Assembly: GCF_030272895.1 (NCBI RefSeq)
Contig: NZ_JALRNF010000016.1
Span: 1-64,000, forward strand
Direction: 5' to 3'
Source: Pseudomonas sp. BGr12
GTDB taxonomy: Bacteria > Pseudomonadota > Gammaproteobacteria > Pseudomonadales > Pseudomonadaceae
DNA length: 64,000 bases
The translations under genes were made by a program, and so were the position numbers. Of this stretch, positions 6,225-20,552 are shown piece by piece. The notes beneath the pieces were generated by a model. The model did not search any database and was not told where the DNA came from. It was given only the letters and a program-made list of their open reading frames with translations. Numbering within the stretch: the stretch's first letter is position 1; the number at the start of each line of letters is the position of its first letter.

Positions 6225-7028
6225 TCAAGCCTGGTAGCGCTCCCGCCCCCAGACCAGCACCGTCTGCAGCAACTGGCGCAACACCTCCTGGGTCGGCTGG
6301 GCCAGATCCTCGCGATACTCGAACGGTTCGACCTCCTCCATATAGGTGCTCTGCGCCAGCTCCAGCTGCACCGCATGGATGTGATTGGCCGGATCGCCAT
6401 AGTGACGGGTGATATGCCCGCCCTTGAAGCGCCCATTGAGCACATGGCTGTACCGCTCGAACCCGGCGCAGACGCCCTGCAAGCGCTCGGCCAGCTGCGG
6501 ATCGCAACTGGCGCCATTGAAGGTGCCGAGGTTGAAGTCCGGCAGCTTGCCCTCGAACAGGTGCGGGATATGCGAGCGGATCGAGTGGGCATCCCAGAGC
6601 AGCGCATAGCCGAACTGCTCGCGCAGGCGCGCCAGTTCGCGACGGATCGTGTCGTGGTACGGGCGCCAGATACCTTCAAGATACTCGGCGCGCTCCTCGG
6701 CGGACGGCTCCTTGCCGGCCTCGAACAGCGGCTCGCCCTCGAACAGGGTGGCCGGATACAGGCCAGTGGTAGCGCCGGCATACAGGGGCTTGTCGTCATC
6801 CGGACGGTTCAGGTCGATGACGAAGCGCGAGTACTCGGCCGCGACCACGCTGGCCCCCAGCTCGCGGGCAAAATCGTACAGGCGCGGAATGTGCCAGTCG
6901 GTATCGGGCAGGCTGCGCGCCGGCTCGACCAGCCCGGCCTTGACCACCGGGCTCAGGCGCAGGCCGGCGTGCGGCATGCTGATCAGCAGCGGCAGGCTGC
7001 CCTGGTGAAAACTCAGTACCTTGTCCAT
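6225..7028 (-). CDS. hutG: N-formylglutamate deformylase (HutG)
   Basis: HutG hydrolyses N-formyl-L-glutamate to formate and L-glutamate, the last step of the five-step histidine route that also uses HutF. I start it at the ATG at 7028 (MDKVLSFHQGSLPLLISMPHAG) because a GGGAG site precedes it at proper spacing; the frame continues upstream without such a site. The 267-residue product has the family features SMPHAG, FVIDLNRP and LWDAHSIRS. It is the last gene of the leftward hut operon, 10 bases after hutI, and a REP pair follows it. Confidence 0.95.
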   Translation of the reverse strand: MDKVLSFHQGSLPLLISMPHAGLRLSPVVKAGLVEPARSLPDTDWHIPRLYDFARELGASVVAAEYSRFVIDLNRPDDDKPLYAGATTGLYPATLFEGEPLFEAGKEPSAEERAEYLEGIWRPYHDTIRRELARLREQFGYALLWDAHSIRSHIPHLFEGKLPDFNLGTFNGASCDPQLAERLQGVCAGFERYSHVLNGRFKGGHITRHYGDPANHIHAVQLELAQSTYMEEVEPFEYREDLAQPTQEVLRQLLQTVLVWGRERYQA

Positions 7029-7038
7029 AGGCGCTCCC

Positions 7039-8244
7039 TCAATTGAAAATTTCACGGCCCAGGCGCACGACCCGCTTGGGCAGGTCGCCCCCCAGCCAGT
7101 AGCACAGGTCTGCCGGACGCTCGATCTGCCAGGCGACGAAGTCCGCCACCTTGCCCACTTCCAGCGAACCATGGCTGTCGCCCAGGCCCAGGGCGGTGGC
7201 CGCATGCAGGGTCACGCCGGCCAGGGCTTCTTCCGGGGTCATGCGGAACAGGGTGCAGGCCATGTTCAGCATCAGGCGCAGCGACAATCCCGGCGAGGTG
7301 CCGGGGTTGAGGTCGGTGGAAATGGCGATCTTCACCCCATGCTTGCGCAGGGCGTCCATCGGTGGCAACTGGGTTTCACGCAGGAAGTAGAACGCACCGG
7401 GCAGCAGCACCGCGACAGTGCCGCTTGCAGCCATGGCAATGGCATCGTCCTCGGTCATGAATTCCAGGTGATCGGCCGACAACGCGTGGTAGCGCGCGGC
7501 CAGGCTCGAGCCGCCCAACGACGACAACTGCTCGGCATGCAGCTTGACCGGCAAGCCCAGGGCCTGGGCCTTGATGAACACCCGCTCGACCTGGGCCGGG
7601 GAAAACGCCAGGTATTCGCAGAAGGCATCGACGGCATCGACCAGCCCCTCGGCGGCCAGGGCCGGCAGCATCTCGTCACAGATGTGGCTGATGTAGTCGT
7701 CGGCGCGGTCCTTGTACTCCGGCGGCAAGGCGTGGGCCGCCAGGCACGTGCTGCGCACGGTCAGCGGCAACTCTTCGCCCAGGCGACGGATCACCTTGAG
7801 CAACTTGCGCTCGCTGTCCAGGTCCAGGCCGTAGCCGGACTTGATCTCCAGGGTGGTCACACCATCGCGCATCAACGCCTGGACCCGCTGGCGGGCGCTG
7901 GCGAACAGCTCGTCCTCGCTGGCCGCCCGGGTCGCCCGCACGGTGCTGGCGATACCGCCGCCCTGGGCGGCGATCTCGGCATAGCTGACGCCTTGCAGGC
8001 GCTGCTCGAACTCGCCGCTGCGATTGCCGCCGAACACCGCATGGGTGTGGCAGTCGACCAGCCCCGGGGTGACCCAGGCGCCGCCCAGGTCCACCGTTCT
8101 GTCAGCGCTGATGGCCGGCAGCGACTGGCGCGGACCAATCCACTCGATATGTCCGGCGCTGGTGACAATCGCCGCGTCTTCGATGATCGAGTAAGTGCCT
8201 TGGGCCATGCTCGCCACATGGCAATGCTGCCAGAGGGTTTTCAT
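7039..8244 (-). CDS. hutI: Imidazolonepropionase (HutI)
   Basis: HutI opens the ring of 4-imidazolone-5-propionate to give N-formimino-L-glutamate, the third step of histidine breakdown. The 401-residue protein is an amidohydrolase-superfamily enzyme. The metal site HTH appears in [12 protein letters not shown], and further ligands lie in the KLHAEQLSS segment and in [16 protein letters not shown] ribosome site precedes the ATG by about 9 bases. It lies between hutT (15 bases) and hutG (10 bases) in the operon. Confidence 0.97.
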
Positions 8245-9811: not shown

Positions 9812-11344
9812 TTACAGGCTAGGCAGGACCTGGGCCGGCAGCAGGCCGGTCAGTTGACCTTCGGCCAGCAGGACGATGGCCGCCTCGATGTCCGGCGCGA
9901 AGAAGCGGTCTTTCTCGTAAGGGGCGACCTTGCCACGCAGGATCTCACGGGCCTTTTCCAGCTTCGGCGAAGTCTTCAGGCCCTCGCGCAGGTCCAGGCC
10001 CTGGGCGGCGCCCAGCCATTCCACGGCGAGTACGCCACGGGTGTTTTCGGCCATTTCCCACAGGCGCTTGCCGGCAGCCGGCGCCATCGATACGTGGTCT
10101 TCCTGGTTGGCCGAGGTCGGCAGGCTGTCGACGCTATGCGGGTGCGCCAGGGCCTTGTTCTCGCTGGCCAGGGCGGCAGCGGTGACCTGGGCGATCATGA
10201 AGCCGGAGTTGACCCCGCCATTGGCCACCAGGAACGGCGGCAGTTGCGACATGTGCTTGTCCATCATCAGCGAGATGCGGCGCTCGCTCAGCGAACCAAT
10301 CTCGGCGATGGCCAGGGCCATGTTGTCGGCGGCCATGGCCACCGGCTCGGCGTGGAAGTTGCCACCGGAGATCACGTCACCTTCGGCAGCGAACACCAGC
10401 GGGTTGTCGGACACGGCGTTGGCTTCGATGGCCAGCACTTCGGCCGCCTGGCGGAACTGGGTCAGGCAGGCGCCCATGACCTGTGGCTGGCAGCGCAGCG
10501 AGTACGGGTCCTGGACCTTGCCGCAGTTTTCGTGGGAGGCGGAAATCTCGCTGCCGTCGCCGAGCAGGTCGCGGTAGCAAGCGGCGACGTCGATCTGCCC
10601 ACGCTGGCCACGGGCGGCATGGATACGCGCATCGAACGGCGAACGCGAGCCGAGCACGGCTTCAACGGTCAGGGCGCCGATCGAGGTGGCGGCGGCGAAC
10701 AGGTCTTCACCTTCGAACAGTCCGCGCAAGGCATAGGCGGTGGACGCCTGGGTGCCGTTGAGCAGGGCCAGACCTTCCTTGGCCGCCAGGGTCAGCGGCT
10801 CCAGGCCGGCAACCGCCAGGGCTTCGGTGGCCGACAGCCACTGGCCCTTGTGGCGCGCCTTGCCTTCGCCGAGCAGGACCAGCGACATGTGCGCCAGCGG
10901 TGCCAGGTCGCCGGAAGCGCCCACCGAACCTTTGAGCGGGATGTGCGGGTAGACCTCGGCGTTGACCAGGGCGATCAGCGCGTCGATGACCTTGCGACGG
11001 ATCCCGGAGAAGCCACGGCTCAGGCTGTTGACCTTGAGCACCATGATCAGGCGCACCATGGCGTCGTCCAGCGGCGCGCCGACACCGGCGGCGTGGGACA
11101 GCACCAGCGAGCGCTGCAGGTTTTCCAGGTCGTGGCTGGCGATACGGGTCGAGGCCAGCAGGCCGAAACCGGTGTTGATGCCGTAGGCGGTACGGTTTTC
11201 CGCCAGGATCTGCTCGACGCAGGCAACGCTGGCGTCGATCTGTGCGTTGGCGCTGGCGTCCAGGGTCAGGCGTACGGGCTGACGGTAGATGCTGCGCAGT
11301 TGGGCCAGGGTCAGTTGCCCGGGAACCAGATTGAATGCGTTCAT
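9812..11344 (-). CDS. hutH: Histidine ammonia-lyase, catalytic paralogue (HutH2)
   Basis: This enzyme eliminates ammonia from L-histidine to give trans-urocanate, the entry step of histidine use. The 510-residue protein closely matches the well-studied P. putida histidase. It has the Ala143-Ser144-Gly145 triad in [11 protein letters not shown], which cyclises to the MIO electrophile. Tyr54, His84, the Asn of LLNGTQ, the QDPYSLR segment, the Phe in GGNFHAE and the Glu of NQEDH are also present. A GGAG site lies 7 bases before the ATG. The gene is 21 bases downstream of the hutH1 paralogue, which lacks the triad, so this is presumably the working histidase. Confidence 0.97.
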
Positions 11345-11365: not shown

Positions 11366-12889
11366 TCAGTGCAGCGTCGTCAGTACGCGCTGAAGCAGTT
11401 GCGGTTGTTTGAGCAGCTCGGCGGCACGGGCGATGTCCGGTGCCAGCCAGCGATCTTCCAGATAGGCGGGTACCTGTTCGCGCAGCAGCTGCCACGCCGC
11501 ATCGGTACCGGCGCCGAAACGCTGGGTCTTGAGGAATTCAAAGGCCTGGGCCGCCAGCAGGTACTCGATGGCCAGCACCTGGGTGCAGTTCTCCAGCACC
11601 TGGTGCAGCTTCAGTGCGGCGTTGGTGCCCAGGCTCAGGTGGTCTTCCTGCAGGCCCGAGGTGACGTAGTTATCCAGCACCGCCGGCTGCGCCAGCTGGC
11701 GGTTCTGGGCGCACAGCGAAGCGGCGACGTACTGGGCGATCATCATTCCCGAGTTGACCCCGGGGTTGCTGACCAGGAACGCCGGCAAGCCGCTGACGTG
11801 CGGGTTGACCAGACGGTCCAGGCGCCGCTCGGCGATCGAACCGATCTCGGCCATGGCGATGGCCAGCAGGTCGGCGGCCATGGCCACCGACTGACCGTGC
11901 GGGTTGGCCTGGGACATCACCCGGAAGTTGTCCGGCGTACCCAGCAGCAGCGGGTTGTCGTTGGCGCCGGTGAGTTCGGCTTCGATCTGCCGCGCGGCAT
12001 GGGCCAGCTGGTCACGGGCAGCACCATGCACCTGCGGGATCGAGCGAATGCTCAGGGCGTCCTGGGTACGGATGCCCTTGCTCGAAGCGATCACTTCGCT
12101 GCCATCGAGCAGCGCGCGCAGGTTCTCACCTACCACCTGCATGCCCGGGTGCGGCTTGAGGGCGATGATCTCGGCATCGAACGCCGCGATCTGCCCACGC
12201 AGGGCCTCGAAGCTCATGGCACCGATCACGTCGGCCCAGTGCAGCAGGCGGGTGGCGTCGTCCAGTGCCAGGCTGGCCAGGCCGGTCATGCACGGCGTAC
12301 CGTTGACCAGGCAGAGCCCGTCCTTGGCCCCCAGCTGCACCGGCTCCAGGCCTTCGGCGGCCAGGGCCTGGGCCGCGTCGACGATCTGGCCGCGGTAGCT
12401 GACCTTGCCGATGCCCAGCAGGCACACGCCGACATGGGCCATGTGGGTCAGGTAGCCCACCGAGCCCTGGGACGGCACTTGCGGGGTGATGCCGCGGTTG
12501 AGCAGGGCCAGCAGCGCTGCGACCACGCCGCGCTGGATACCGGACTTGCCATGGCTGTAGTTGGCGATGGCCGCGCAGATGATCGCCCGGGTCTGCTCAT
12601 CGGGCAGCGCCGGGCCAACGCCGCAGGCGTGGCTGAGCAGGGTGTTGCGCGACAGCGCGCTGAGCTGCTCGCCCTGCAGCGACACGTTGCACAGTGCGCC
12701 CAGGCCGGTGTTCACGCCGTAGGCACGCTCACCGCTTTCGACTATGTGACGAACGATGGCCTGGGCATTGTCGATGCGCGCCCACACCAGTGGCGCCAGC
12801 TCCAGGCGCGCGCCATGGCGGGCCACGGCGGCGATGTCCTGCCAACGCAGCGGGGCGTCGGCAATCACGATGGTTTCAACTTGCGACAT
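11366..12889 (-). CDS. HutH1: ammonia-lyase paralogue lacking the MIO triad
   Basis: This is a 507-residue member of the histidine/phenylalanine ammonia-lyase family. The ATG at 12889 (MSQVETIVI) is favoured over an upstream TTG because GAGG sits 6 bases before it. Aligned by eye with the neighbouring histidase, it keeps Tyr57, His87, Asn196 and Glu415. However, GSVG(144 area) runs straight into YLTHMAH: the Ala-Ser-Gly that forms the MIO group is deleted exactly (junction at 12454/12455, Gly145-Tyr146). The catalytic Tyr280 of P. putida histidase is Leu279 here, and Phe329 is Pro330. I therefore doubt ammonia-lyase activity. A binding, regulatory or other enzymatic role is open. Confidence 0.85.
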   Translation of the reverse strand: MSQVETIVIADAPLRWQDIAAVARHGARLELAPLVWARIDNAQAIVRHIVESGERAYGVNTGLGALCNVSLQGEQLSALSRNTLLSHACGVGPALPDEQTRAIICAAIANYSHGKSGIQRGVVAALLALLNRGITPQVPSQGSVGYLTHMAHVGVCLLGIGKVSYRGQIVDAAQALAAEGLEPVQLGAKDGLCLVNGTPCMTGLASLALDDATRLLHWADVIGAMSFEALRGQIAAFDAEIIALKPHPGMQVVGENLRALLDGSEVIASSKGIRTQDALSIRSIPQVHGAARDQLAHAARQIEAELTGANDNPLLLGTPDNFRVMSQANPHGQSVAMAADLLAIAMAEIGSIAERRLDRLVNPHVSGLPAFLVSNPGVNSGMMIAQYVAASLCAQNRQLAQPAVLDNYVTSGLQEDHLSLGTNAALKLHQVLENCTQVLAIEYLLAAQAFEFLKTQRFGAGTDAAWQLLREQVPAYLEDRWLAPDIARAAELLKQPQLLQRVLTTLH

Positions 12890-12897
12890 GGCCAACC

Positions 12898-13725
12898 TCA
12901 GACTGTTGCCGCACGGCGTTGAACGAAACGGTCGACATACTCGTCGGCCGGCGAATGGAGGATCTCTTTCGGCGTACCGACCTGGATCAGGCGGCCATCC
13001 TTGAGGATGGCGATGCGGTTGCCGATGCGCACGGCTTCATCGAGGTCATGGGTGATGAACACGATGGTCTTGTGCAGGGTCTTCTGCAGTTCCAGCAACT
13101 GGTCCTGCATTTCGGCGCGGATCAGCGGATCCAGGGCGCTGAAGGCTTCGTCCATGAGGATGATGTCGGTGTCCGCCGCCAGGGCGCGGGCCAGGCCGAC
13201 CCGCTGGCGCATGCCGCCGGACAACTGGTGCGGGTACTTCTTCTCGTAGCCCTTCAGGCCCACGGTGTTTATCCAGTGCAGGGCGCGTTCGTTGCACAGT
13301 TCCTTGCTCTCGCCGCGCACCTTCAGGCCGTAGGCGACGTTGTCCAGCACGTTACGGTGCGGCAGCAGGCCGAAGCTCTGGAACACCATGCTGATCTTGC
13401 GTCGGCGGAAGTTGCGCAGCGCTTCCATGTCGTACTGCAGGATGTCTTCGCCATCGACCAGGATCGCGCCGCTGGTGGGGTCGATCAGGCGGTTGAAGTG
13501 ACGCACCAGGGTCGACTTGCCGGAACCGGACAGGCCCATGATCACGAAGATCTCGCCGCTGCCGATCGACAATGACAGGTCGTTGACCCCGACCACGCAG
13601 CCGGTCTCGGCCAGTACCTGCTCCTTGCTGCGCTTTTGCTGAATCAGTTGCAGGGCCTCGTCGGCCCGGTTACCGAAGATCTTGAAGACATTCTTCACTT
13701 CGATCTTGCTGACCTGCGTGTTCAT
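12898..13725 (-). CDS. hutV: ABC transporter ATPase of the hut locus (HutV/ProV-like)
   Basis: This is the cytoplasmic ATPase of a quaternary-amine/histidine type ABC importer. The 275-residue protein shows Walker [10 protein letters not shown], the signature LSGGMRQR, Walker [10 protein letters not shown] and the switch His in FITHDLDEA. It lacks the C-terminal CBS pair of long ProV proteins, so its osmotic sensing, if any, would differ. Its start overlaps the stop of the permease gene in ATGA. Together with the next two genes upstream it forms a complete importer within the hut operon, and I infer histidine or a related imidazole as substrate. Confidence 0.88.
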
Positions 13726-14573
13726 TTGCTCACCTCATGCCGTGGCCGACCGTAGGCCTGGGTAATGCGGTCGATCACTACCGCGAGAATCACGATGGCC
13801 AGGCCCGCTTCCAGGCCGCGACCGACGTTCAGGGTCTGGATGCCGATCAGCACGTCCTCACCCAGGCCACGGGCGCCGATCATCGAGGCGATCACCACCA
13901 TCGACAGGGCCATCATGGTGGTCTGGTTGATGCCGGCCATGATGCTTGGCAGGGCCAGCGGCAGTTGCACGCCGAACAGTTGCTGCCAGCGGTTGGCGCC
14001 GAAGGCGTTGATCGCTTCCATGACTTCGCCGTCCACCTGGCGGATACCCAGGTCGGTCAGGCGGATCAGCGGTGGCGCGGCGTAGATCACGGTGGCGAAG
14101 ATCGCCGGCACCTTGCCCAGGCCGAACAGCATCAGCACCGGAATCAGGTACACGAAGCTGGGCATGGTCTGCATGATGTCGAGCATCGGCATCAGCACCG
14201 CACGCAGGCGGTTGCTGCGGGCCGAGAGGATCCCCAGGGGGACGCCCACCAGCACCGAAATCAGCGTGGCCACCAGCATCAGCGCCAGGGTTTGCATCAG
14301 TTTGTCCCACAGGCCAACCATGCCGACCAGGAACAACAGGCCGGCGATGACCACGGTCGGCAGGATCCGACGGGTAGCGTGCCAGGCAATGACTGCCACC
14401 AGGCCCAGCATCAGCCACCAGGGCGTTGCCCGCAGCAGGCCTTCGAGGTTGACGATGGCCCAGAGCAGGGTGTCGGAGATGTGCCGGAACACATCGCCGT
14501 AGTTGGTCACCAGCGCATCGACCCAGCCATTGACCCAGTCAGCGATGGAGAAGGTAAAGTTTTCGGGAAACAT
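13722..14573 (-). CDS. hutW: ABC transporter permease of the hut locus (HutW/ProW-like)
   Basis: This is the membrane subunit of the importer encoded with the ATPase and binding-protein genes. It has an N-terminal tail, several hydrophobic helices (for example [16 protein letters not shown] and [16 protein letters not shown]) and the BPD-type coupling loop [29 protein letters not shown], typical of ProW/OpuAB permeases. I chose the ATG at 14573 ([13 protein letters not shown], 283 residues); an in-frame GTG at 14582 would add MNP but has no better ribosome site. It overlaps the ATPase gene by 4 bases. Confidence 0.9.
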
Positions 14574-14603
14574 AGGGTTCACTCATCAGGTAGAAGTGGA
14601 AGC

Positions 14604-15569
14604 TCAGAGCGCTGCTTCGATTTTCTTCGCGGCGTCTTCGCTGACCCATGCATGCCAGACTTCAGGATGTTCCTTGAGGAAGATCTTGGCCAGTGCCGGC
14701 GATTCGATGCGGTCCTTGGCCATGCGGGCCAGGTTCTGGTTGAGCAAATCGATCGGCATGTTGACCTTCTCCAGCACCGCGACCAGCTCGGGCGCCTCGT
14801 CGTGGAAGGTCTTGGACAGGCCGACCTTGATCGACACGCTGTTGTCCACGCCGGGTTTTTCTTCCAGCTTGACCAGGTCGACCTGACCCATCAGCGGGGT
14901 GGGCGACCAGTAGTAGAACAGGATCGGTTCGCCGCGCTTGTAGCTCGACAATACCGCAGCATCCAGCGCCGGGCCGGTGCCCGGGCGGAAGTTGGTGAAT
15001 TTGTCTTCCAGGCCGTAGTCCTTGAGCATGCGGCTGTTATCCAGCTCGCAGGTCCAGCCGGCCGGACAGTTGTAGAAACGACCTTTGCCTGGCTCTTCCG
15101 GATCGCGGAAGACTTCGGCGTATTTGCCCAGGTCAGCAATACCCTTGAGCTCAGGCGCCTTGGCCTCGAGCTTGCGCTTGGCATCGCCTTCGATCACGTA
15201 GCGCGGCACATACCAGCCTTCGGCCGCACCGACCACGGGCGAACCGACGCCGACCACCTTGCCGGCCGCCTCGGCCTTCTTCCAGACCTCACTGCGACCT
15301 ACCCACTCTTCGGCGAAGACCTGGATATCGTTGGTACCCAGGGCGTTCTCCATGGTGATGGAGTTGCCCGGCAGGCTGTCGGTCTTGCAGCCGTAGCCCT
15401 TGTCCAGCACGAACTGCATCACGTCGGTCAGCAACATGCCGCTTTCCCAGTTCAACCCGGCGAATTTCACCGGCTTGCCGGATTCACACCAGGTGGCCGC
15501 CTGGGCGCCGGCGCTGCCGAGCAGGCCAACGGCGAACAGCGACGCGAGCAGGGTCTTGGTCATTTTCAT
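14604..15569 (-). CDS. hutX: ABC transporter substrate-binding protein of the hut locus (HutX/ProX-like)
   Basis: This is a periplasmic binding protein of the glycine-betaine/ProX family (OpuAC fold), predicted to deliver histidine or a related compound to HutWV. The start at 15569 gives a signal peptide (MKMTKTLLASLFAVGLLGSAGAQA, cleaved before ATWCESG) and a 321-residue protein; the GGAG site lies 9 bases upstream. Two Cys pairs are possible, WCES/YGCKT and FYNCPAGWTCEL. The aromatic residues in GWYVPRY and ILFYYWSPTPL are where ProX-type proteins bind a cationic ligand, so betaine-like substrates cannot be excluded. It is 30 bases upstream of the permease gene. Confidence 0.88.
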   Translation of the reverse strand: MKMTKTLLASLFAVGLLGSAGAQAATWCESGKPVKFAGLNWESGMLLTDVMQFVLDKGYGCKTDSLPGNSITMENALGTNDIQVFAEEWVGRSEVWKKAEAAGKVVGVGSPVVGAAEGWYVPRYVIEGDAKRKLEAKAPELKGIADLGKYAEVFRDPEEPGKGRFYNCPAGWTCELDNSRMLKDYGLEDKFTNFRPGTGPALDAAVLSSYKRGEPILFYYWSPTPLMGQVDLVKLEEKPGVDNSVSIKVGLSKTFHDEAPELVAVLEKVNMPIDLLNQNLARMAKDRIESPALAKIFLKEHPEVWHAWVSEDAAKKIEAAL

Positions 15570-15767: not shown

Positions 15768-17447
15768 TCAGCCGGTGATCATCGGCAGGTTCAGGCCCTG
15801 CTCTTTGGCACAATCGATGGCGATCTGGTAACCGGCATCGGCGTGACGCATCACACCGGTTCCCGGGTCGTTGGTCAGAACGCGGGCGATACGCTCGGCA
15901 GCCTCGTCGGTACCGTCACAGACGATAACCATGCCCGAATGCTGGGAGAAGCCCATGCCGACGCCACCACCGTGGTGCAGCGAGACCCAGGTCGCGCCGC
16001 TGGCGGTGTTGAGCAGGGCGTTGAGCAGCGGCCAGTCGGAAACGGCGTCGGAACCATCACGCATGGCTTCGGTTTCGCGGTTCGGGCTGGAGACCGAGCC
16101 GGAGTCCAGGTGGTCGCGGCCGATGACGATCGGTGCCGACAGCTCGCCGCGACGGACCATTTCGTTGAACGCCAGGCCCAGCTTGGCACGCAGACCCAGG
16201 CCAACCCAGCAGATACGTGCCGGCAAGCCCTGGAAGCTGATGCGCTCGCGGGCCATGTCCAGCCAGTTGTGCAGGTGGGCGTCGTCCGGGATCAGTTCCT
16301 TGACCTTGGCGTCGGTCTTGTAGATGTCCTCGGCGTTACCCGACAGTGCCGCCCAGCGGAACGGACCGATACCGCGGCAGAACAGCGGACGGATGTAGGC
16401 CGGTACGAAGCCCGGGAAGTCGAACGCGTTGCTCACGCCCTCTTCCTTGGCCATCTGGCGGATGTTGTTACCGTAGTCGAAGGTCGGGATGCCCTGCTTC
16501 TGGAACTCGAGCATGGCCTTGACGTGCACGGCCATCGATTGCTTGGCGGCCTTGACCACGGCAGCCGGTTCGGTCTGCGCACGGTCGCGGTACTGCTCCC
16601 AGGTCCAGCCGGCTGGCAGGTAGCCATTGAGCGGGTCGTGGGCGCTGGTCTGGTCGGTGACCATGTCCGGGCGCACGCCACGCTTGATCAGCTCAGGCAG
16701 GATTTCGGCAGCGTTGCCCAGCAGGGCGACGGAGATGGCCTTGCCTTCGGCGGTGTACTTGGCGATGCGTGCCAGAGCGTCGTCCAGGTCCTTGGCCTGC
16801 TCGTCGACATAACGGCTGCTCAGGCGGAAGTCGATGCGGCTCTGCTGGCATTCGATGTTCAACGAGCAGGCGCCGGCCAGGGTTGCGGCCAGTGGCTGGG
16901 CACCGCCCATGCCGCCCAGGCCCGCGGTCAGGACCCACTTGCCCTTGAGGCTGCCGTTGTAGTGCTGGCGACCGGCTTCGACGAAGGTTTCGTAGGTGCC
17001 CTGGACGATGCCCTGGCTGCCGATGTAGATCCAGCTGCCGGCGGTCATCTGGCCGTACATGGCCAGGCCCTTGGCATCCAGTTCGTTGAAGTGTTCCCAG
17101 TTGGCCCAGTGCGGTACCAGGTTGGAGTTGGCGATCAGCACGCGCGGGGCGTTGGCGTGGGTCTTGAACACGCCGACCGGCTTGCCCGACTGCACCAGCA
17201 GGGTTTCGTCGTCATTCAGGTTGGTCAGGCTTTCGACGATCTTGTCGTAGCAGGCCCAGTTGCGCGCGGCACGGCCGATGCCACCGTACACCACCAGTTC
17301 TTTCGGGTTCTCTGCCACTTCCGGGTCGAGGTTGTTCATCAGCATGCGCAGCGGCGCTTCGGTCAGCCAGCTCTTCGCAGTCAGCTTGTTACCGCGCGGG
17401 GCGCGGATTTCGACGTCACGGAATTTGTTCAGGTTGTTGTCAGTCAC
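15768..17447 (-). CDS. hutU: Urocanate hydratase (HutU)
   Basis: HutU adds water to urocanate to form 4-imidazolone-5-propionate, using tightly bound NAD+. The 559-residue protein is of the standard length. It carries the dinucleotide-binding segment [16 protein letters not shown] and the conserved C-terminal [17 protein letters not shown]. The start is a GTG at 17447 ([15 protein letters not shown]) with AGGAG 8 bases before it. It is the first gene of the leftward hut operon, preceded by a sigma-54 promoter and a HutC-type operator. A REP pair separates it from hutX. Confidence 0.97.
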
Positions 17448-19161: not shown

Positions 19162-19187
19162 AATAATCACAACGAGGTGCCGTGTCG

Positions 19188-20552
19188 ATGTCCGTCTTCT
19201 TTGCCGAACGTGCGTTGCTCCCTGGCGGCTGGGCCGAAAACGTCCGAATCGAGGTCGGCGCCGATGGCTTGCTGGCCAGTATCCAGGCCGGCGGCTCGGC
19301 CGCAGGCGCCGAGCGCCTGGCCGGCCCGCTGCTGCCAGGCATGCCCAACCTGCACTCGCACGCCTTCCAGCGCGCCATGGCGGGGCTTGCGGAAGTGGCG
19401 GGCAATCCCAATGACAGCTTCTGGACCTGGCGTGAACTGATGTACCGCCTGGTCGGCAAGATCAGCCCCGAGCAGTTGCAGGTCATCGCCCGGCAGCTGT
19501 ACATCGAGATGCTCAAGGCCGGCTACACCTCGGTGGCCGAATTCCATTACGTGCACCACGACACCCAGGGCAAGGCCTATGCCGACCCGGCCGAACTGTC
19601 GTTGCGCATCAGCCAGGCAGCCCGTGCCAGCGGTATCGGCCTGACCCTGTTGCCGGTGCTGTACAGCCACGCAGGCTTCGGCGGCCAGGCACCGAACGAC
19701 GGCCAGCGGCGCTTTATCAACAGCACCGAGCAGTACCTCAAGCTACAGCAGCAGCTGGCGCCGCTGCTGGCCGAGCAACCCGCCCAGCAACTGGGCCTGT
19801 GCTTCCACTCGCTGCGCGCCGTCACTCCGGAGCAGATCGCCCAGGTCATGGCCGCCAGCGACAAGGCCTGCCCGGTGCATATCCACATTGCCGAACAGCA
19901 AAAGGAAGTCGACGACTGCCTGGCCTGGAGCGGACGCCGGCCGCTGCAATGGCTGTATGAAAATACCGAAGTCGATCAACGCTGGTGCCTGGTACACGCC
20001 ACCCACGCCGAGCCCGACGAAGTCACCCTGATGGCCCGCAGCGGCGCGATTGCCGGCCTGTGCCTGACCACCGAAGCCAACCTGGGCGACGGTATCTTCC
20101 CGGCGGTGGACTACCTGGCCCAGGGCGGTCGCCTGGGGATCGGCTCGGACAGTCATGTATCACTGAGCGTGGTCGAGGAACTGCGCTGGCTGGAGTACGG
20201 CCAGCGCCTGCGCGACCAACGGCGCAACCGCCTGTATGGCAGCGATCAGCCGATGGTCGGACGCACGCTGTACGATGCCGCCCTGAGCGGCGGTGCCCAG
20301 GCGCTGGGGCAAGCCATTGGCGAGCTGAGCGTTGGCAAGCGTGCCGACTGGCTGGTGCTCGACGGCAACGACCCGTACCTGGCCACCGCCAGCGGCGATG
20401 GCATTCTCAATCGCTGGCTGTTTGCCGGCAGCGACCGCCAGGTGCGCGATGTGATGGTCAACGGCCAGTGGGTAGTGCGCCAGGGGCGCCATGCCGATGA
20501 GGAAGAAAGCGCCCAGGCGTTTGCCGGGGTTCTGCGGGAATTGCTGGGTTGA
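19188..20552 (+). CDS. hutF: Formimidoylglutamate deiminase (HutF)
   Basis: HutF deaminates N-formimino-L-glutamate to N-formyl-L-glutamate and ammonia, the fourth step. Its presence with HutG shows the five-step pathway instead of direct formiminoglutamase. The amidohydrolase metal motif is PNLHSHAFQRAMAG, with further ligands in VHIHIAEQ and GSDSHVS. I chose the ATG at 19188 (MSVFFAERALLPGGW, 454 residues), with GAGG 10 bases upstream; an in-frame GTG at 19182 is possible. It is transcribed away from hutC under a shared HutC-type operator, and a REP pair follows. Confidence 0.95.
   Translation: MSVFFAERALLPGGWAENVRIEVGADGLLASIQAGGSAAGAERLAGPLLPGMPNLHSHAFQRAMAGLAEVAGNPNDSFWTWRELMYRLVGKISPEQLQVIARQLYIEMLKAGYTSVAEFHYVHHDTQGKAYADPAELSLRISQAARASGIGLTLLPVLYSHAGFGGQAPNDGQRRFINSTEQYLKLQQQLAPLLAEQPAQQLGLCFHSLRAVTPEQIAQVMAASDKACPVHIHIAEQQKEVDDCLAWSGRRPLQWLYENTEVDQRWCLVHATHAEPDEVTLMARSGAIAGLCLTTEANLGDGIFPAVDYLAQGGRLGIGSDSHVSLSVVEELRWLEYGQRLRDQRRNRLYGSDQPMVGRTLYDAALSGGAQALGQAIGELSVGKRADWLVLDGNDPYLATASGDGILNRWLFAGSDRQVRDVMVNGQWVVRQGRHADEEESAQAFAGVLRELLG

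Follow-up and report, generated by a model that had tools for sequence, protein, structure and literature searches.

What does a histidase-like protein do when it lacks the residues that form the MIO electrophile, and why is its gene kept in a histidine utilization (hut) operon beside an ordinary histidase and a betaine-type importer? This question is raised by Pseudomonas sp. BGr12, in a window of 64,000 nucleotides (contig NZ_JALRNF010000016.1), which is the whole stretch of DNA that was analyzed. The genes concerned are arranged as follows.

hutH2, 9812..11344, minus strand: ordinary MIO histidase with the motif GSVGASGD
hutH1, 11366..12889, minus strand: MIO-less lyase of the HAL fold, 507 amino acids, proposed hercynine trimethylamine-lyase
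hutV, 12898..13725, minus strand: ABC ATPase of the betaine/proline/choline family, over the TIGR01186 cut-off
hutW, 13722..14582, minus strand: ABC permease of the choline/glycine-betaine type (models match below cut-off), overlapping hutV by 4 bp
hutX, 14604..15560, minus strand: ProX/ChoX-like substrate-binding protein (models match below cut-off)

The hutH1 gene starts with the ATG at 12889 and stops at 11366-11368 on the minus strand. hutV ends 8 bp before this ATG and hutH1 ends 21 bp before the ATG of hutH2; the position between the importer genes (hutV) and hutH2, described in an earlier note on this DNA, is borne out in the window.

We compared the active sites of the two lyases, which are 40% identical, by alignment. 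In the motif region HutH1 reads GSVGYLTHMAH and HutH2 reads GSVGASGDL. GSVG thus runs into YLTHMAH at codons 12457-12452 (Gly145 at 12457-12455, Tyr146 at 12454-12452), and the MIO triad is absent, as the earlier note had claimed. Its phrase for HutH1, a paralogue with the triad precisely deleted, is right about the absence; it understates the age of a protein that the tree described below places in a separate lineage, and the exact placement of the gap is ambiguous (ASG or GAS gone), the Ala-Ser-Gly triad being missing both ways. Active-site positions follow the site numbers of P. putida HAL. By alignment to HutH2, HutH1 keeps Tyr53 (Y57), His83 (H87), Asn195 (N196), Gln277 (Q276), Arg283 (R282) and Glu414 (E415), and it is changed at Tyr280 (L279) and Phe329 (P330). 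The residue calls made earlier, Leu for Tyr280 and Pro for Phe329 with Tyr57, His87, Asn196 and Glu415 kept, were therefore correct. The codons of interest are these.

Pro330 codon, 11900..11902, minus strand: Phe329 of P. putida HAL
Leu279 codon, 12053..12055, minus strand: Tyr280 of P. putida HAL; Leu also in T. denticola ergothionase
Gly145-Tyr146 codons, 12452..12457, minus strand: junction at which the Ala-Ser-Gly MIO triad is absent

A HAL fold without the ASG triad, which is a criterion of ergothionase-like lyases, was found for HutH1 in both the sequence and the predicted monomer. This monomer, in which residues 405-417 around Glu415 have a pLDDT <50, is read for its fold alone, since the active site is assembled from several subunits. 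HutH1 scored 537.0 with the hutH equivalog model TIGR01225, below its cut-off of 539.15, and 548.2 with the subfamily model NF006871, above its cut-off of 524. In an NCBIfam scan at E 1e-40, all nine MIO-less lyases scanned matched only HAL/PAL/TAL and aminomutase models, and no MIO-less-specific model was found.

The missing triad and the Leu at position 280 are conserved, which is the outcome of the orthologue alignment proposed in the earlier note. All of the 120 best homologues listed, out of 6985 that scored, have the motif QGSVGYLTHMAH, and an alignment of 235 MIO-less relatives shows no variation at the Y53, H83, Q277, L280, R283 and E414 positions; these relatives were picked by motif, so that the invariance of Y146 among them follows from the selection of rows. 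Across 298 Pseudomonadaceae genomes, sampled evenly (283 of them with a completeness of 90% or more and no more than 5% contamination), 98 of 99 matches with at least 50% identity to HutH1 had no internal stop. The sole exception, G029, has one TGA there, but none within its PF00221 match. The median dN/dS was 0.166 for HutH1 and 0.156 for HutH2 (105 pairs from 15 genomes, including that of the window), and HutH1 is under purifying selection, with a dN/dS close to that of HutH2. Decay of hutH1 or an assembly error is therefore unlikely given the low dN/dS and the conserved QGSVGYLTHMAH, and we ruled out a pseudogene or a sequencing or assembly error on these grounds. The earlier note had named a sequencing error as a possible refutation, with the triad present in relatives; none of the 120 best homologues listed has the triad back, and its description of an intact gene holds.

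We constructed a phylogenetic tree of 52 lyases, with the MIO motif removed before building. The 17 MIO lyases formed one side of a branch (support 97/91), and HutH1 grouped with other MIO-less proteins of the GYL/GYI type, from Pseudomonadaceae, Erwinia and rhizobia, in a clade with 26 members (100/100). A third group (100/99) joined the T. denticola ergothionase with two rhizobial proteins that carry an xAD motif. HutH1 lies outside this ergothionase clade, a placement that the long branches make unsure. On the evidence of the tree, HutH1 is a separate MIO-less lineage. Since its lineage is separate from that of ergothionase, the histidase fold may have given up MIO more than once, although several long branches limit the counting of losses. 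Two candidate origins were rejected on the same topology: a recent in-place deletion from hutH2, and membership of HutH1 in the ergothionase clade. Of 20 genomes examined with the PF00221 model, 19 had an MIO-less lyase; a histidase-type MIO lyase accompanied it in 18 of them, G943 being the exception.

Further members of these families were seen along the way. A second MIO-less lyase of the window's genome is encoded on contig C246 (L005:6774-8321, plus strand); it reads GSVGYLGPEGH and keeps Tyr280 and Phe329. Its gene follows those for a Rieske oxygenase with its reductase and for a polar amino-acid ABC importer, in a cluster that recurs in L082 and L084-L086. A fourth PF00221 lyase of this genome (G000 contig C75:66216-67610, plus strand), just past the window, has the ASG triad and is about 30% identical to HutH2. 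In genome G264 (L083:8870-12362, minus strand), a HutH1 orthologue (84%) stands beside a lyase of the C246 type (79%), by one amino-acid importer. In the two rhizobial lyases grouped with the T. denticola ergothionase (L022:8980-10485 and L023:6839-8479), AAD or QAD replaces the triad; one has an annotated hutC and the gene of a glycine-betaine binding protein as neighbors, and the other lies near an annotated DMSP lyase. A second HutX-like protein in the window's genome, 74% identical (G000 contig C203, L203:8790-9968, minus strand), has no labelled permease or ATPase neighbors.

The importer next to hutH1 provides a further line of evidence. Eight of the nine tryptophans of HutX are invariant among 34 homologues, and judged by its model matches HutXWV is a glycine-betaine/choline-type ABC system. 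In the fetched loci, which are 40 chosen stretches and a subset of the HutH1 matches in the 298 Pseudomonadaceae genomes, hutV adjoins hutH1 in 20 of the 21 Pseudomonadaceae loci whose HutH1 is at least 75.7% identical, and hutH2 adjoins it in only nine; in the 21st locus, L083, a polar amino-acid importer replaces HutXWV beside hutH1. HutH1 is tied to the importer rather than to the histidase. Among the 298 genomes, HutH1 (at least 70% identity) occurs in 94, HutX (at least 78%) in 90 and both in 89, with identity cut-offs that were chosen after the lists were inspected. In the five genomes with HutH1 only (G011, G029, G100, G120 and G264), the neighbor of the lyase is a polar amino-acid ABC importer. 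The single genome with HutX only (G163) has HutXWV without an adjoining hutH1, and its hut region holds a 58% identical MIO-less lyase at another place. Another 14 genomes have best HutX matches of 66-74% identity, and 11 of them have no HutH1 at 70% or above; some betaine importers of the HutX family therefore work without HutH1.

An importer gene was found within 300 bp on the same strand for 91 of 124 MIO-less lyases versus 4 of 60 MIO lyases (Fisher 6e-19, a p-value that comes from related loci, most of them fetched by MIO-less similarity, and is thus not one for independent cases). These four MIO lyases are hutH2 genes on the far side of hutX. No labelled importer lies within 300 bp of the other 33 MIO-less lyases, and L083 was scored as having none because its importer is farther away. 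An importer of the basic amino-acid type accompanies the MIO-less lyase in Erwinia, in five Pseudomonadaceae loci with a close HutH1 and in 56 of 80 rhizobial loci. Because the lyase is served by either a betaine-type or a basic amino-acid-type importer, its ligand should be both, as histidine betaine is. In G903 and G989, from other classes of the phylum, HutXWV homologues adjoin an MIO-less lyase in a hut locus that also has an MIO histidase. Among the rhizobial loci (L094-L173), 34 of 77 have a SolA-type N-methyl amino acid oxidase that follows the MIO-less lyase within 300 bp, hinting at N-methylated substrates.

The remaining enzymes of the pathway are encoded in the window as well.

hutG ORF, 6225..7205, minus strand: N-formylglutamate deformylase, labelled by similarity to an annotated homologue
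hutI, 7039..8244, minus strand: imidazolonepropionase, labelled by similarity to a model-typed homologue
hutU, 15768..17447, minus strand: urocanate hydratase, scoring above the cut-off of the hutU model and below those of both thiourocanate hydratase models
hutF, 19182..20552, plus strand: formimidoylglutamate deiminase, labelled by similarity to a model-typed homologue

HutU is the only hydratase match in the genome of the window. Unlike in ergothioneine catabolism, which is marked by a thiourocanate hydratase together with ErtD, the model search found neither a thiourocanate-type hydratase nor ErtD over cut-off in this genome. The single urocanate-type hydratase and the lack of ErtD over cut-off argue against ergothioneine as the substrate of HutH1.

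We consider HutH1 to be probably an MIO-independent C-N lyase which, together with HutXWV, imports hercynine and splits it to urocanate and trimethylamine. In this scheme, HutXWV would bring hercynine (N-alpha-trimethylhistidine, histidine betaine) into the cell, HutH1 would split it, and the urocanate would enter the ordinary HutU-HutI-HutF-HutG pathway. The MIO electrophile activates a poor amine leaving group, and a trimethylammonium group has no need for it. Being already a good leaving group, the trimethylammonium of hercynine would make the electrophile unnecessary, and without the triad there may be space for the three methyl groups. Catalysis by HutH1, trimethylamine as the leaving group and hercynine as the substrate are all three what we infer, because this reaction jointly fits the importer type, the missing MIO, the conserved residues and the downstream enzymes. 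Against the hercynine reading, HutH1 lies outside the characterized ergothionase clade, so that the argument for its chemistry relies on a distant homologue and on gene context. Also weighing against it are the reported part of HutXWV in histidine uptake, the 33 MIO-less lyases with no labelled importer within 300 bp, the 11 genomes with a HutX-like protein of 66-74% and no HutH1 at 70% or above, and G163, whose HutXWV has no hutH1 at its side. The SolA-type oxidases of the rhizobial loci could also point to mono- or dimethyl substrates rather than hercynine.

Gene content outside Pseudomonas bears on the same question. Three Klebsiella plasmid records (L019, L236 and L237) have hutC, hutD, hutF, hutU, an NCS1-type permease and hutI alongside a GSVGYL lyase and an importer of the OpuB/OsmV type, and a search with HutH1 found one lyase place in each and no second lyase. 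In L019, the record covered by model typing, HutU, HutI and HutF exceed their own model cut-offs and the permease is also typed by model; the annotated hutU of L237 is short. On the hercynine reading, the operon of these plasmids looks dedicated to that compound. Klebsiella chromosomes carry their own histidase, so the plasmid operon by itself is no proof. Genome G943 (30 contigs, 100% complete) has hutD, hutF, hutU, hutI and hutG with a 56% identical MIO-less lyase, and next to an OpuB-like importer it has a second MIO-less lyase, of the AAD type. The search at E 1e-60 turned up no MIO lyase of the histidase type in it; its only ASG lyase at this threshold is 75% identical to the L004 lyase of the window's genome and 35% identical to HutH2. 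In the Klebsiella plasmids and in G943, the pathway below urocanate is present and the usual first enzyme was not found alongside it. In L188 and L189, both hut loci, an MIO-less lyase is flanked by hutU and hutI. On the Agrobacterium plasmid pAtA6, a HutH1 homologue (44%) occurs with HutXWV homologues (49/63/64%), an S-methyl-thiourocanate hydratase (975.8 bits, cut-off 880) and ErtD (782.8, cut-off 600), and it seems that this cluster is the same module adapted to a sulfur-bearing betaine.

We also compared HutH1 with known systems. Ergothionase releases trimethylamine from ergothioneine without MIO (PMC13405746). The T. denticola enzyme (PDB 6s7j/6s7q), like HutH1, has Leu at Tyr280 and keeps Tyr53, His83, Gln277, Arg283 and Glu414. 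It is only 29% identical to HutH1, falls in a separate clade and has the motif GEGD in place of GYL; unlike HutH1, it keeps Phe329 and has Ser for Asn195. Since ergothionase shares Leu280, the change at Tyr280 in HutH1 is no sign of inactivity, and the changes suggestive of a lost histidase function appear, in part, to match those of a working trimethylamine lyase. With P. putida HAL HutH (1b8f), HutH1 has the fold, several active-site residues and the place in the hut operon in common; unlike that enzyme, it lacks the MIO triad, has Leu280 and Pro329 and lies outside the MIO side of the tree. The hutXWV-hutH1 module of SBW25 has, by its description, the same gene set as the window and is also reported in P. 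aeruginosa; there, HutH1 is called a histidase and HutXWV a histidine transporter that participates in histidine uptake (PMC8871633). EgtU, an ABC importer of the QAC type, resembles HutXWV as a betaine-type importer that binds a histidine betaine through an aromatic cage; it is described in Firmicutes and strongly prefers ergothioneine over hercynine (PMC9732360). HutX is closer to ProX/ChoX. In a fish-derived Pseudomonas strain, two hutH genes were reported to rise with hutU under iron limitation, so both copies would be transcribed there (PMC8069873). A dns-hutH double deletion in V. natriegens is reported to have stopped most ergothioneine loss (PMC13276445). Within the open-licence literature, we found no report of hercynine as a Pseudomonas nutrient and no title or abstract assigning a hercynine-lyase role to HutH1, which is no proof of absence.

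Several other readings of HutH1 have to be weighed against these observations. Its main substrate could be ergothioneine, S-methyl-ergothioneine or mono-/dimethylhistidine, handled by an equally MIO-less lyase. Such a role would fit the 44% identical Agrobacterium homologue, clustered with ErtD and the S-methyl-thiourocanate hydratase, and the SolA-type N-methyl oxidase that lies no more than 300 bp past the lyase in 34 of the 77 rhizobial loci. We regard it as doubtful, though worth keeping in view, given the single urocanate-type hydratase of the window's genome, with no ErtD over cut-off, and given that HutU, HutI and HutF of the Klebsiella L019 operon exceed their own cut-offs. The earlier note had suggested a repurposed protein. 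Its option of an enzyme with different chemistry is in line with the reading that we favor, whereas its other options, a non-catalytic binder of histidine or urocanate or a subunit that modifies HutH2, fare badly. The loss of the triad, Tyr280 and Phe329 speaks for an inactive protein, but Tyr53, His83, Gln277, Arg283 and Glu414 are invariant in 235 relatives, hutV adjoins the gene in 20 of 21 loci and hutH2 in 9 of 21, and the protein occurs in G943, where a search at E 1e-60 found no MIO lyase of the histidase type. Ergothionase is moreover a precedent for catalysis by this fold with Leu280 and in the absence of MIO, and we judge a non-catalytic HutH1 to be unlikely.

An MIO-independent histidase, deaminating histidine by another mechanism, seems very unlikely. 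The MIO-less lyases between hutU and hutI in L188 and L189 would suit it; however, 18 of the 19 genomes with an MIO-less lyase also hold a histidase-type MIO lyase (G943 excepted), and the MIO-less S153A variant of R. xylanophilus PAL is reported to have lost practically all activity (PMC3903478). That HutH1 is a decaying duplicate is scarcely credible: the absent triad is what one would expect of decay, but the low dN/dS, the conserved motif and length and the separate lineage already contradict it. Taking the evidence jointly, we put it at slightly better than even that HutXWV-HutH1 is a module for the import and elimination of hercynine, that it forms a second entry into the hut pathway, and that its lyase would be the first hercynine lyase, of a lineage apart from ergothionase.

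In SBW25, one of the two hutH copies is reportedly non-functional. If the hercynine reading is true, it would give a function to the conserved hutXWV-hutH1 pair, the lyase of which is reportedly not required for growth on histidine, and it would explain the presence of a betaine-type importer within a histidine operon. Hercynine is a metabolite of fungi and actinobacteria, and a catabolic route for it would be revealed. The recurrent annotation of MIO-less lyases as histidase is flagged by this analysis. The hercynine reading would also mean that the MIO electrophile is dispensable once the leaving group is already charged.
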